A DNA stretch of 29,733 nt from a virus. Location of the stretch: positions 1 to 29,733 of the IMG/VR virus record IMGVR_UViG_3300041583_000375. The stretch is one strand, 5' to 3'. The first letter of the stretch is position 1. Each line of letters begins with the position of its first letter. Of this stretch, positions 12,664-17,725 are shown piece after piece. The notes under the pieces are model-generated. The model was not told the DNA's origin and did no database searches. It was given only the letters and a program-made list of their open reading frames with translations. The position numbers and the translations under genes were made by a program.

Positions 12664-13802
12664 AGCTCTGGCTCGACCTCGAAACTTACTGCGAGACACC
12701 GATCACGCACGGCACGCACCGCTACGCCGAGGACGTGGAGGTGCTGCTGTTCGCCTACGCCGTTGACGACGCGGTGCCCCAGGTGTGGGACGTGACCACC
12801 GGTGCGCCGATGCCGGCCGACTTGCGCATTGCGCTGCGCGATGCCGGCGAGGTCTGGGCGCACAACTCGGGCTTCGACCGCACCGTGCTGCGCCACGCGA
12901 TGCCCGACATCTGCCCGCCGATCGAGCGCTGGCGCGACACCATGATCCAGGCTTTCGCACACTCGCTCCCAGGCAAGCTGTCGGTGCTCTCGGAGATCCT
13001 GGGCATGACGGCCGAGGAGGCCAAGGACAAGCGCGGCAAGCAGCTGGTGATGCTGTTCTGCAAGCCCAAAGCATTCAGCCACAAGTATTTGCGCTGCGAT
13101 TTCGGCATCGCCAAGAACTACAAAAAGGCTGTGGAAGCCGCAAGGGCTGAGTGGTGCGGCCGCGCAAGCCGCCAGACCCACCCACGCGAGTGGGCCGAGT
13201 TCATCTCTTACGCCGGCAGCGACATCCTGGCCATGCGCGCGGCGCACCGCAAGATGCCGATGTGGAATTACCGAGGCTTTGAGCTCGGCCTGTGGCATCT
13301 CGACCAGCGCATCAACGACCGGGGCGTGATGACCGATGTACCCCTGGCGAAAGCGGCCATTGAGGCCGTCGACCGCGAGCAGACCCGCTTGCGCGCGCAG
13401 ATCGCAGACGCCACCGTTGGCGCGGTGGACTCGGCCACCAAGCGCCAGGCGCTGCTCGACTTTTTGCTTGAAGAGCACGGCTTCCTGCTCGACGATCTGA
13501 AGGGATCCACCATTGATCGGCAACTGGAAATCGCAGGGCTTGACCCCGCCATTCGCGAGTTGCTGCTGATCCGCCAGAAGGCCAGCACCAGCAGCACCAG
13601 CAAGTACACCGCGCTGCTCAAGGCGGTGAGCCGCGACGGTCGGCTGCGGGGCCTGCTTCAGTTCAACGGCGCGGCGCGCACCGGGCGCTGGGCGGGTCGT
13701 ATCTTTCAGCCGCAGAACATTTCTCGGGGCGTTCTCAAGGGCGAACTGCTGGACGACGCCATCGACGCGATGCTGGGCAGCTATCTGGAGTTGGTGCTGT
13801 GA
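12660..13802 (+). CDS. Family-A DNA polymerase, N-terminal fragment with 3'-5' exonuclease (380 aa)
   Basis: It carries the proofreading exonuclease: ExoI D-L-E in LWLDLETY (residues 3-10), ExoII in VWAHNSGFDR, ExoIII YxxxD in YAGSDILAM. The first part of the polymerase domain follows: LGLWHLDQRINDRGV, QKASTSSTSKYTALL and QFNGAARTGRWAGRIFQPQN. It stops at LGSYLELVL, where family members continue straight into the segment now at the start of the ORF at 14298. The homing endonuclease gene at 13799 overlaps its stop codon, so the polymerase is fractured and the palm catalytic residues are on a separate polypeptide. The two parts probably assemble as a split enzyme. Confidence 0.88.
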   Translation: MKLWLDLETYCETPITHGTHRYAEDVEVLLFAYAVDDAVPQVWDVTTGAPMPADLRIALRDAGEVWAHNSGFDRTVLRHAMPDICPPIERWRDTMIQAFAHSLPGKLSVLSEILGMTAEEAKDKRGKQLVMLFCKPKAFSHKYLRCDFGIAKNYKKAVEAARAEWCGRASRQTHPREWAEFISYAGSDILAMRAAHRKMPMWNYRGFELGLWHLDQRINDRGVMTDVPLAKAAIEAVDREQTRLRAQIADATVGAVDSATKRQALLDFLLEEHGFLLDDLKGSTIDRQLEIAGLDPAIRELLLIRQKASTSSTSKYTALLKAVSRDGRLRGLLQFNGAARTGRWAGRIFQPQNISRGVLKGELLDDAIDAMLGSYLELVL

Positions 13803-14305
13803 CCGAACTCTGGAGACCCATTCCGGGATACGAGGGGCGCTACGAGGTCAGCGATCAGGGCCGGGTCGCCTCGGTGCCCTTCATGCAGCGCTACGTTATG
13901 TGCAACGGCGTCGAGGGCTTTCGCCAGACCAAGGGGAAGCCCCTAGCCCAACAGGTCATCAACAGCGGGTACTTGATTGTCCACCTCCACCGGGACAACA
14001 AAAGAACCGCTTGCACCGTGCACCGTTTGGTGGCCAGGGCGTTCCTCGGGGAGCCCGCGCCAAGCCTAGAAGTGAATCACAAGGATCTTCACAAGGCGAA
14101 CAACCGGGTCGAGAACCTTGAGTGGGTCACGCGCACCGCCAACCACATTCATGCCGTTTACGGGGGTGTGCACACCCTGGCCGCGCGCGTGGAAGACCCC
14201 CTGACCGGCGCTAAGTACCCGTCAATGCGCGAGGCGTCCAGGCTTTGCGGGCTCGGGGAGAAGTACGTCCGCAACCACTTTATCCGGCTTGAAAATCATG
14301 TCTAA
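13799..14305 (+). CDS. NUMOD4-HNH homing endonuclease splitting the polymerase gene (168 aa)
   Basis: A NUMOD4 motif (WRPIPGYEGRYEVSDQGRV, residues 5-23) is followed by an HNH_3 domain: TVHRLVARAFLG (73-84), EVNHKDLHKANNRVENLEWV (91-110) and TANHIHA. A C-terminal helix-turn-helix-like module (SMREASRLCGLGEKYVRNHF) probably reads DNA. Such enzymes cut an uninterrupted allele and copy themselves in. The GTG start overlaps the N-fragment's stop, and its stop overlaps the C-fragment's start. There is no room for a self-splicing intron around it, so it looks like a free-standing endonuclease inserted straight into the polymerase gene. Confidence 0.88.
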   Translation: MTELWRPIPGYEGRYEVSDQGRVASVPFMQRYVMCNGVEGFRQTKGKPLAQQVINSGYLIVHLHRDNKRTACTVHRLVARAFLGEPAPSLEVNHKDLHKANNRVENLEWVTRTANHIHAVYGGVHTLAARVEDPLTGAKYPSMREASRLCGLGEKYVRNHFIRLENHV

Positions 14306-16334
14306 AACCCTATCCGACTACTCAGTCATGGACATCCTGTCCAGCACGATCCGGGGGTGCTTGCAAGCGACCCCCGGCACCAAGATGGTCGTGGCTGATC
14401 TCTCGAACATCGAGGGCCGCGCGCTGGCCTGGCTGGCGCGCGAGCAGTGGAAGCTGGACGCCTTCGCCGAGTTCGACACGATGCAGCAGACCATCGACGG
14501 CTGGGTCAGCGGTGGTGAGTGGGCGCGCCAGACGCGTGAGCGCCAGGAGACGGGCCTGCTGCTTGACCGCAAGGGCGAACCCATCCATCGGGGCCACGAC
14601 CTCTACGCGCTGGCCTACGCCAAGTCCTTCGGCGTTACGCCCGAGGCGGTGATGGAAAACAAAAAGACCGGCGACGGCTCGATGCGCCAGATCGGGAAAG
14701 TTCAGGAACTGGCCTGCTTCGGTGCCGACACCCAGGTGCTTACCTCAAACGGCCTGAAGGCCATCAACACAGTGACCTTGGAGGATCTCGTATGGGACGG
14801 AGTGATGTGGGTGCCGCACAGCGGCTTGGCGGCGCGGGGGACGCGCCAGACGCTGTCTCTCGCGGGTATCGAAGTAACTCCGGATCATTTGATCAGAACC
14901 GGGGCAACGTGGACGCAGGCGCAGCAACTCGCTACGTGCGAAAGCACCCTCTCCCAAGCCCTGGCGACCGGTTCGGCGAACTTACCGTCGTCGGTGTGGA
15001 GCGCGGGCTTTTGGGATCCTGCATGGTTGACAACATTCGGGTGGCTTGTTCCTGCGGCGCCGAGCCACATCTGGTTCGCGACTACAACCTGCGCAAAGGC
15101 AGTAGCACGCGGTGCAACGCATGCGCTAAAAAAGCTGCTGGGCACTGGCGCAAGGACTGGTACGCCTACGCAGGCATTTGCCCGGACGATGCCCACCGTC
15201 GGCGCTTGCTCAACCGCATTTCAGCGGCAATCACCCGCTGCCACAGCCCAACCGCAAAGCAGTACCCGACTTACGGCGGGCGCGGCATCCACGTCTTTGA
15301 GCCTTGGCGCAAAGACAAGCGGGGCTTCCTGGCCCACTTGCTCACCCTGGCCGGCTGGGAAGACCCAGGCAATGACATGGATCGCATCGACGTGGACAAA
15401 GGCTACGCGCCGGGCAACGTGCGTTTCGTCACCGCACATGAAAACCGGGGGAGCAACAAGCGCACCGTCAAAGGGTTGCAACAGCGGCTCTTTGACCTTG
15501 AGGCCCGTCTTCGACTTGCTGAATTGCGGGCCTCGCAACAGGTTCACGGTGATGACTTCGAAGGGTCCGCTGATCGTCCATAACTGCGGCTATGAAGGCG
15601 GCGTGGGCGCTTTCGCGACCTTTGCTTTGGTCTACGGTATCGACTTGGACGAGCTCCCCGCCATCGTCCTGCCCGCCGCCGACCCAGCCCTGGTGCGCGA
15701 TTCCCGAGGCTTTTACCGCTGGCTGATGGAGAAGAAAAAAGGCAAGAACACCTACGGCATGTTCGAAGACACGTTCGTGGCCTGCGATGTGATCAAGCGT
15801 GGCTGGCGCCTCGCACACCCTCAGACCGCATCGTGGTGGAAGCAGCTGGAGGAGGCGTTCCGCCTCGCCATCGACAACCCGGGCGACACGTTCGAGGCGC
15901 GGTCGGTGACGGTGACGCGGCCCTGCTTCAAGAGCGGCAAGCCGACGCAGTGGACCACCATCACCCTGCCCTCGGGCCGGCGCCTGTGCTACCCCGGCGC
16001 GCGCATCGAGCAGGCCGACAGTTCGATCACGTACATGGGCGCCGACCAGCGCACGCGCAAGTGGTCGCGCTTGAGCACCTACAGCGGCAAATTGGCGGAG
16101 AACGTCACCCAGGCATTCGCCCGCGATGTCCTCGCCTACAACATGCCGCTGATCGAGCAGCAGGGCTACGAGATCGTGCTGTCGGTGCACGACGAACTGC
16201 TCACCGAATCCCCCATATCTCCCGAATTCAGCAGCGACCACCTCGCCGCCTGGATGGCCAACGTGCCGCCCTGGGCCGAGGGCTTGCCGCTGGCTGCTGC
16301 CGGGTTCGAGACCCTCCGGTATAGGAAAGACTGA
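14298..16334 (+). CDS. Family-A DNA polymerase, C-terminal fragment with intein (678 aa; 388 without intein)
   Basis: It continues the polymerase from SDYSVMDILSSTIRG. Motif A is VVADLSNIEGRALAW with D34, E39 and R41. Motif B (O-helix) is RQIGKVQELA with R130 and K134, then an intein (residues 140-429), then CGYEGGVGAF. Motif C is VLSVHDELL with H631-D632-E633. Removing the intein restores GKVQELA-CGYEGG, the usual family sequence. The ATG at 14298 overlaps the HNH gene's stop; the frame is open from TTG at 14289. N- and C-fragments together total about 768 residues, normal for the family. Activity requires splicing and association with the N-fragment. Confidence 0.88.
   Translation: MSKTLSDYSVMDILSSTIRGCLQATPGTKMVVADLSNIEGRALAWLAREQWKLDAFAEFDTMQQTIDGWVSGGEWARQTRERQETGLLLDRKGEPIHRGHDLYALAYAKSFGVTPEAVMENKKTGDGSMRQIGKVQELACFGADTQVLTSNGLKAINTVTLEDLVWDGVMWVPHSGLAARGTRQTLSLAGIEVTPDHLIRTGATWTQAQQLATCESTLSQALATGSANLPSSVWSAGFWDPAWLTTFGWLVPAAPSHIWFATTTCAKAVARGATHALKKLLGTGARTGTPTQAFARTMPTVGACSTAFQRQSPAATAQPQSSTRLTAGAASTSLSLGAKTSGASWPTCSPWPAGKTQAMTWIASTWTKATRRATCVSSPHMKTGGATSAPSKGCNSGSLTLRPVFDLLNCGPRNRFTVMTSKGPLIVHNCGYEGGVGAFATFALVYGIDLDELPAIVLPAADPALVRDSRGFYRWLMEKKKGKNTYGMFEDTFVACDVIKRGWRLAHPQTASWWKQLEEAFRLAIDNPGDTFEARSVTVTRPCFKSGKPTQWTTITLPSGRRLCYPGARIEQADSSITYMGADQRTRKWSRLSTYSGKLAENVTQAFARDVLAYNMPLIEQQGYEIVLSVHDELLTESPISPEFSSDHLAAWMANVPPWAEGLPLAAAGFETLRYRKD
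14715..15584 (+). other. Intein in polymerase motif B (290 residues)
   Basis: The N-terminal splicing block begins C1-FGADTQVLTSNGLKAI, then LEDLVWDGVMWVPHSG and block B GIEVTPDHLI (TxxH), then WTQAQQLA and ALATGSANLPSS. The C-terminal block is VFDLLNCGPRNRFTV, then GPLIVHN followed by extein Cys. Cys1, the TxxH histidine, the penultimate His and the final Asn are all present, so splicing looks possible. Between the blocks (about 14985-15525) the intein frame is a Ser/Thr/Ala/Gly-rich stretch with the look of a shadow frame, because the endonuclease is encoded in another frame there. Junctions were placed by comparison with the uninterrupted family motif. Confidence 0.85.
14792..15583 (+). 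CDS. Homing endonuclease nested out of frame inside the intein (263 aa)
   Basis: It lies in the -1 frame relative to the intein. A GGAGG Shine-Dalgarno at 14780-14784, 7 bases before the ATG at 14792, supports independent translation. Residues 1-50 are overprinted on the intein's N-block. The recognised part starts GDRFGELTVVG (58-68). Cys pairs C86/C88 and C108/C111 look like a zinc site. Then come PTYGGRGIHVFEPW (159-172), MDRIDVDKGYAPGNVRFV (196-213) and ENRGSNKR, the conserved core of phage AP2/HNH-like homing endonucleases. The stop TAA overlaps the codons for the final His-Asn of the intein, so the gene is wholly inside it. Confidence 0.85.
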   Translation: MGRSDVGAAQRLGGAGDAPDAVSRGYRSNSGSFDQNRGNVDAGAATRYVRKHPLPSPGDRFGELTVVGVERGLLGSCMVDNIRVACSCGAEPHLVRDYNLRKGSSTRCNACAKKAAGHWRKDWYAYAGICPDDAHRRRLLNRISAAITRCHSPTAKQYPTYGGRGIHVFEPWRKDKRGFLAHLLTLAGWEDPGNDMDRIDVDKGYAPGNVRFVTAHENRGSNKRTVKGLQQRLFDLEARLRLAELRASQQVHGDDFEGSADRP

Positions 16335-17725
16335 TGCTGAAATTTGGATCTGTTTGCAGCGGCATAGAAGCTGCCAGCGTTGCGTGGCACCCGCTTGGTT
16401 GGACGGCCGCCTGGGTTGCGGAAATCGAGAAATTCCCCAGCGCCGTGCTCGCGCACCACTACCCCGAGGTGCCCAACCTGGGCGACATGACCGACCTGCC
16501 CGAGAGCATTGCGCTCGGCCTGGTTGAAGCCCCCGACGTGCTTTGCGGGGGAACCCCCTGCCAAGCGTTTTCTGTTGCTGGCCTGCGCCGATCGCTCGAC
16601 GACGCGCGCGGCAACCTGTCCCTTGTTTTTTGTGAGATTGCCAATGCCATCGACGCTGCCCGCCTTGACGCCGACCTCGACCCTGCCATTATTTTCTGGG
16701 AAAACGTCCCCGGCGTTCTCAGCACCAAGGACAACGCCTTCGGCTGCTTCCTTGCCGGGCTTGCCGGCGAAGATGATCCGCTCGACCCGCCAGGGGGCAA
16801 ATGGGCGTACGCAGGTGTGGTGTCTGGACCCGCGCGCACAGTCGCTTGGCGGGTGCTCGACGCCCAATATTTCGGAGTGGCCCAACGACGCCGCCGTGTG
16901 TTCGTTGTCGCAAGTGCTCGAGCAGACTTCGATCCCGTCGCGGTTCTTTTTGAGTTCGACGGCCTGCGCCGGGATACTGCGCCGAGCAGAAAAGCGGGGC
17001 AAAGCACTGCCCACAGCACTGCTCCATGCCTTACAAGCAGTGGCAGGGGCGTCTCGCGAACGGGCGACACCCGAGGACAAGACCCTGTTGTCGCTTGCCG
17101 AGTAGCCGCCTACGGGGGCGGCAACCAAGCCGGTGAGATAGAGGTGGCCACCGCGCGCAACGCTTGCGCCAGCCCGAAGGGGCGCCTGGACTTCGAGAGC
17201 GAGACGTTTTTGGTCGTGCCCGAGACCGCCCACACCCTGCGCGGCGAGGGCTTTGACGGCAGCAAAGACGGGACAGGCCGGGGCACGCCGTTGGTGCCGG
17301 TGCTGCCGTTCGACACAACGCAGATCACCCACGCCGCGAACCGCAGCAACCCAAAGGCGGGCGACCCATGCCACCCGCTTGCTGCTGGCGCCCATGCGCC
17401 TTGCGTGGCCTACACCACCAAGCTGCACAACACCACCAGCAACAACGCCGGCAAGTTGTTTGAAGAACGCACCGCCTGCCTGGACGCCAACAGCCCGCCG
17501 CCCGCGCTGCTGACCGCCACGCAAGTGCGCCGCCCCACCCCCACTGAATGCGAAAGGCTCCAGGGGTTCCCTGACGGCTACACCCAGATCGCGTGGCGCG
17601 GCAAGGCCGCGGCGGACTGCCCGGACGGCCCGCGCTACAAGGCGCTGGGCAATTCGTGGGCGGTGCCTGTCGTCAGGTGGATCGGCGATCGCATAAACTC
17701 ACAACTCTTAGACAACCTCCTATGA
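16334..17725 (+). CDS. DNA (cytosine-5) methyltransferase (463 aa)
   Basis: Transfers methyl from SAM to C5 of cytosine. Motif I is FGSVCSGIEAAS (4-15), motif IV GGTPCQAFSVAG with catalytic C76, motif VI ENV (123-125), motif VIII QRRRRVF, and motifs IX/X are LQGFPDGYTQIAW and LGNSWAVPVVRWIGDRI. The long variable region between VIII and IX, where target recognition lies, is about 270 residues. It is coupled to the polymerase stop by TGATG and overlaps the next gene by ATGA. No cognate restriction gene is adjacent, so it is probably an orphan phage methylase protecting the genome. Target sequence unknown. Confidence 0.92.
   Translation: MLKFGSVCSGIEAASVAWHPLGWTAAWVAEIEKFPSAVLAHHYPEVPNLGDMTDLPESIALGLVEAPDVLCGGTPCQAFSVAGLRRSLDDARGNLSLVFCEIANAIDAARLDADLDPAIIFWENVPGVLSTKDNAFGCFLAGLAGEDDPLDPPGGKWAYAGVVSGPARTVAWRVLDAQYFGVAQRRRRVFVVASARADFDPVAVLFEFDGLRRDTAPSRKAGQSTAHSTAPCLTSSGRGVSRTGDTRGQDPVVACRVAAYGGGNQAGEIEVATARNACASPKGRLDFESETFLVVPETAHTLRGEGFDGSKDGTGRGTPLVPVLPFDTTQITHAANRSNPKAGDPCHPLAAGAHAPCVAYTTKLHNTTSNNAGKLFEERTACLDANSPPPALLTATQVRRPTPTECERLQGFPDGYTQIAWRGKAAADCPDGPRYKALGNSWAVPVVRWIGDRINSQLLDNLL

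Follow-up and report, generated by a model that had tools for sequence, protein, structure and literature searches.

A probable mobile intein in the family A DNA polymerase gene of a phage, its homing endonuclease probably overprinted in a second reading frame

The virus sequence examined here, an IMG/VR record of 29,733 bases analysed over its whole length (the window), very probably carries a mobile intein in the family A DNA polymerase gene of a phage, with a homing endonuclease that is overprinted on the intein and translated separately from an internal start. Moreover, we consider it likely that overprinted-endonuclease inteins form a distinct and recurrent class, in which at least three independent HNH lineages (type I, that of the window, read in -1, and types II and III, both read in +1) were captured in family A polymerase inteins, the internal start being selected within splicing-domain codons and the endonuclease dose set by translation and not by splicing.

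The host gene encodes the C-terminal part of a split family A polymerase (14289-16334, + strand, as for all features given below; ORF of 681 aa) and matched the PHROG DNA polymerase families phrog_7766 (E=7e-56), phrog_10285, and phrog_17. An 870-nt insertion (14715-15584) breaks it at ELA^CGYEGG, and across this insertion the polymerase frame stays open. A C5-cytosine DNA methylase gene (16334-17725) follows directly. Upstream, between 12660 and 14305, the polymerase gene is itself divided, the ends overlapping, by a gene for a NUMOD4/HNH_3 homing endonuclease (13799-14305); since the continuous polymerase of a relative (L013) aligns across this split, to window positions 12666-13772, 14280-14717, and 15552-16328, the exonuclease and the polymerase portion are probably two separate proteins.

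The insertion reads in the polymerase frame as an intein of 290 stop-free codons (14715-15584), recognised from motifs, alignment, and an AlphaFold2 model, from C1 at 14715 to N290 ending at 15584, with the block B motif TPDH, a terminal HN, Cys at +1, and the junctions ...QELA^C...VHN^CGYEGG. The first-pass annotation, made from the letters alone, gave coordinates and frames that proved correct to the base and had described both splicing blocks as complete in this frame, and so they are: the N-terminal HINT block comprises residues 1-92 (14715-14990; divergence at the intein wobble position over 14715-14894; pLDDT about 97) and the C-terminal block residues 260-290 (FDLLNCGPRNRFTV..VHN; 15492-15584; intein-wobble divergence from 15525; pLDDT 95-97). 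In the model these two parts fold together (pLDDT about 97), while residues of about 98-256 are disordered, and residues 76-88, including the start of ALATGS..., form a confident helix. The predicted HINT fold superimposes on the Mtu RecA intein (3ifj) with Z 15.4 and 2.2 A over 115 residues, and nearly all of its top structural matches are inteins or Hint domains. Furthermore, C1, T55, H58, H289, and N290 are invariant across the intein alignment, thus including the catalytic C1, the TxxH of block B, and the C-terminal HN, with C, S, or T at +1; the frame is continuous with the host gene, the insertion site is conserved, and some relatives lack the intein. A Pfam scan of the single intein sequence gave no useful match, nor did one of the nested protein give any; PHROG profiles and structure models were used in place of single-sequence Pfam scans, and in the profile searches proposed earlier for both translations PHROG returned HNH endonuclease and DNA polymerase families.

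Within the intein DNA, a second gene of 263 codons is read in the -1 frame, from ATG 14792 to TAA 15581-15583, and matches phrog_374, 'HNH endonuclease', with E=1e-26, as the initial reading of an out-of-frame endonuclease had anticipated. Its ATG is formed from the intein codons ..GTA-TGG.. (Val-Trp), and a Shine-Dalgarno-like GGAGG (14780-14784), lying within the intein codons for L-E-D, precedes it with a spacing of 7 nt. The stop overlaps the last intein codons, TAA being formed from CAT-AAC, which encodes H289-N290. The conserved, ordered part of the protein, a zinc-binding Cys region and the HNH core (14948-15520), is delimited by HNH-wobble divergence at about 14925-15494 and by pLDDT, which is about 50 for residues 1-50 and at least 95 for most of the chain past residue 51. 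The first ~50 residues (14792-14947) look unfolded and little selected; nevertheless, motifs such as RSN[AS]GSF recur in them. A Foldseek search of the endonuclease model against the PDB gave no significant match; with regard to the beta-beta-alpha metal fold of HNH enzymes, the best structural match, PacI, is weak (Z 5.8, 84 aligned residues, 2.9 A). The D-R-I-D motif of the family is non-canonical, with the first His that would be expected apparently replaced; we assume that the nested HNH protein is catalytic.

A separate start for this protein is predicted from codon choice in the overlapping frame. An ATG in the -1 frame arises wherever an A-ending codon precedes either Trp of the conserved intein motif [LV]-W-D-G-x-x-W, and among 64 loci, which are related by descent so that counts across them are not independent, A precedes the first TGG (W1) in 44 (16.6+-3.3 expected) and the second (W2) in 47 (30.1+-3.6 expected), leaving a usable ATG in 54 against 3.2+-1.7 expected. 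For one of the 64 (L003), the intein end taken in these and the stop counts lay 96 nt too far. Shine-Dalgarno-like sequences are in excess before the W2 start (36 of 64 loci vs 14.9+-3.1 expected); before W1, the apparent start in the window, they show no excess (25 vs 26.0 expected in the same 64). A subset of the relatives has GGAGG before the same ATG, and a clear Shine-Dalgarno sequence is missing from some loci. A first null for the start codons, drawn from polymerase codon usage, was replaced, as the inteins' own usage is more A-ending and the effect was overstated. Since the excess of A-ending codons extends beyond W1 and W2, the stop statistics given below carry more weight than those on ATG. 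Taken together, the enrichment of start codons supports the earlier suggestion that the endonuclease could be made without splicing, from a selected start of its own.

Programmed -1 ribosomal frameshifting within the intein, which would fuse the polymerase and intein N-terminus to the HNH protein with no separate start, is an improbable alternative. It would suit the constant -1 frame of type I and the fact that the HNH frame is open for some distance upstream of the core; however, slippery heptamers occur in only 10 of the 64 loci, scattered and at no conserved -1 site, many loci have stops in the HNH frame immediately before the start, start codons and Shine-Dalgarno sequences are enriched, and types II and III use the +1 frame.

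Since the two frames are offset by one base, a silent position in one is a replacement position in the other, which allows the frame under selection to be followed along the element. Between related pairs, variation falls at the intein wobble position over 14715-14894 and from 15525 onwards, and at that of the endonuclease over about 14925-15494. Thus, selection switches frame sharply, from the intein at both ends to the endonuclease in the middle. Mismatch is low at every codon position over about 14925-14984 and 15495-15524, so that constraint in both frames is found at the two edges where conserved motifs had been said to overlap. The structure models agree with this map, with HINT ends and a disordered middle in the intein frame and an ordered HNH protein in the other.

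Avoidance of stops gives the same picture. When synonymous codons were shuffled under a constant HNH protein, the probability of a stop-free intein frame was p=0.04 for the window by itself; the result becomes decisive over 64 loci, in which no intein-frame stop was seen within the HNH core against 219 expected; the unused third frame, as a control, had 836 against 858 expected. Conversely, when the intein protein was fixed and codon usage taken from the non-overlapped intein blocks, a single HNH-frame stop was seen between the second start and the core vs 141.6+-10.5 expected. Another possibility, also improbable, is that the HNH frame is a dead remnant in an element that now only splices. 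Such remnants do occur among the relatives, where one type III HNH gene (in L102) contains a stop although its intein frame is intact and one mini-intein (in L098) has no HNH gene at all; in type I, by contrast, the endonuclease frame is under strong purifying selection, and it is intact in the window.

The arrangement is widespread. By tblastn against annotated phages, 154 records contain the nested protein with at least 80% query coverage, most often within a gene called 'DNA polymerase'; among them are SETP3-like Salmonella phages, Escherichia Kagunavirus phages, Sodalis phage SO-1, Pseudomonas MR14, EBPR siphovirus 2, and Vibrio 97.13. In IMG/VR, a scan based on an alignment gave 262 relatives of the endonuclease, and in all of the closest 80 the HNH gene lies in the same -1 frame inside a long polymerase ORF; this -1 nesting was also seen in six contigs from assembled bacterial genomes. 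Overall, the HNH gene was in the -1 frame in 89/89 nested type I loci, the frame offset was identical in every type I locus examined, and the 86 complete inteins that could be delimited (277-323 residues each) all kept the polymerase frame open. In this context, a group I intron with an HNH ORF in place of an intein is very improbable: the record of Sodalis phage SO-1 states 'type I self-splicing intron', and HNH genes do occur elsewhere in polymerase genes with joined CDS (ICP2), but an open polymerase frame in 86 of 86 delimited elements, invariant intein catalytic residues, element ends that evolve as protein in the intein frame, and the modelled HINT fold (Z 15.4) argue against it, and no Rfam match was obtained, either for the window (gathering score, and E up to 1) or for SO-1 and other relatives (gathering score). 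That sequencing or assembly indels shifted a formerly in-frame endonuclease, of the kind that conventional inteins carry fused in frame, has a negligible probability and is already refuted by the homologues: more than 80 separate sequences, and cultured phages too, share the offset, and selection has acted on both frames over the long term.

Among the retrieved relatives no in-frame endonuclease was found at this intein site, an observation that had been named beforehand as a refutation, and the reading frame is not an indel artefact. As the layout recurs in three independent versions and in far more than a hundred sequences of phages and prophages, the nested arrangement is stable, old, and widely overlooked, and no sequencing error. 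Of the two descriptions first offered, an intermediate or a new arrangement, the former does not stand in view of the 80 of 80 closest IMG/VR relatives, the cultured phages, and at least three origins. In SETP3, a second intein lies in the helicase (L005:6343-7645) and is annotated as having a Hint domain associated with homing endonucleases (LAGLIDADG according to the Ent2 record), which indicates that fused and overprinted kinds coexist in one genome.

Type II, seen in phages of Streptococcus and Gardnerella as well as in Clostridia and Allobaculum sequences, occupies the same ELA^C site, with an HNH gene that belongs to another lineage and is read in +1; of 16 non-redundant loci, 15 have a usable ATG together with at least 5 nt of Shine-Dalgarno match, vs 1.0+-0.9 expected. 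Type III, represented by APSE-2, Caulobacter RW, and Shewanella SFCi1, lies at another polymerase site and has a third HNH gene, likewise in +1. Intein-frame stops were absent from both (203.7 expected for type II and 60.2 for type III). The 65 more distant HNH relatives of type III, which serve as a control, lack a second open frame, in keeping with a free-standing origin for that HNH gene. The overprinted HNH arrangement arose at least three times.

With regard to mobility, the intein-free polymerases of pink and UKE1 (88% and 77% nucleotide identity, respectively, to the SETP3 polymerase) represent empty sites, and an HNH gene can be 77% identical where the flanking polymerases are only 31% identical, which points to lateral movement. 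A single polymerase ORF of 1278 aa (L102:138-3971) has two inteins, each with an out-of-frame HNH gene, of which the type I copy (-1) is intact and the type III copy (+1) has one internal stop, with the intein frame intact. In the polymerase of Ruminococcus phage NatCom_29429 (L098:3501-3900), a mini-intein without HNH sits at the type II site. This pattern of decay is what a homing cycle would leave, the endonuclease being lost before the splicing domain, and it is from the distribution of the elements that homing is suggested.

We infer splicing, internal initiation, DNA cutting, and homing from sequence, and the following course would account for the element. Ribosomes in the polymerase frame would produce a precursor in which the two parts of the HINT domain (residues 1-92 and 260-290) are joined by a disordered linker of roughly 165 residues, and HINT would splice itself out to restore ELA-CGYEGG. 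Other ribosomes would initiate inside the intein, at an ATG derived from the conserved Trp codons read in -1, and yield a separate HNH endonuclease that would drive homing into intein-free polymerase genes. The amino acids of the linker would be dictated by the endonuclease, selection acting only against stops in a spacer otherwise unconstrained.

An intein and its homing endonuclease are normally treated as one fused protein; here they are split by reading frame within one piece of DNA. Separation of the frames would allow the endonuclease to be expressed, mutated, or lost without touching splicing, while the element still moves as a unit. Furthermore, these are naturally selected overlapping genes, with both frames open over about 200 codons and many homologues. 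Overprinting also explains the long annotated inteins of Salmonella phage polymerases that seemingly lack an endonuclease, and many deposited phage polymerases hide an unannotated gene.

Two arrangements are established, the intein with a fused endonuclease and the fractured intein, and the window element belongs to neither. Like the conventional large inteins (PI-SceI, PI-MtuI), the window element has a HINT domain with C1, TxxH, HN, and Cys+1, and an endonuclease coded within the intein DNA. In those inteins, however, the endonuclease is read in the intein frame and belongs to the protein that is spliced out, whereas here it is a separate out-of-frame HNH gene, as in each of the 89 type I loci with nesting, and a disordered, unconstrained linker takes up the in-frame middle. 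Fractured genes or split inteins with an endonuclease gene between the halves, reportedly described by Dassa and colleagues in 2009, resemble the element in that the endonuclease is made independently of splicing; they differ in that host gene and intein are broken into two genes, whereas the window intein is one continuous frame, with a single ORF running through it.

Partial precedents for a hidden endonuclease exist in the brucellaphage terminase, the ShiLan domain, and APSE P45/P46, and the novelty first claimed for the arrangement holds only in part. Our literature search found no paper on polymerase inteins with overprinted endonucleases as a class, and a preprint on actinobacteriophage inteins of 'non-canonical architecture' (10.1101/2025.01.02.630785) may contain a prior description. 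For brucellaphages, an out-of-frame HNH in the large terminase gene is stated in one sentence (PMC4422536); the host gene is different, frames, start, and selection are given no analysis there, and the comparison is by description only. The ShiLan domain/Pacc40 is a hidden out-of-frame HNH in phage methylases that shares with our element a stop-free host frame, mobility between phages, and a TAAC end with the stop in the other frame, but its authors find neither intein splicing motifs nor a detectable ribosome-binding site, and the domain is thought to be retained in the protein (PMC11855218). Among deposited records, the Ent2 intein is annotated as 'encoding splicing domains' only, and the annotation of SO-1 gp39 (L008:3387-4145) places an HNH in a 'type I self-splicing intron', the sequence being instead that of an intein. 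Indeed, APSE-2 P45/P46 and SO-1 gp38/gp39 have the same kind of nesting as the window, with both ORFs annotated, although as a hypothetical protein or an intron and not as an intein with a nested endonuclease.
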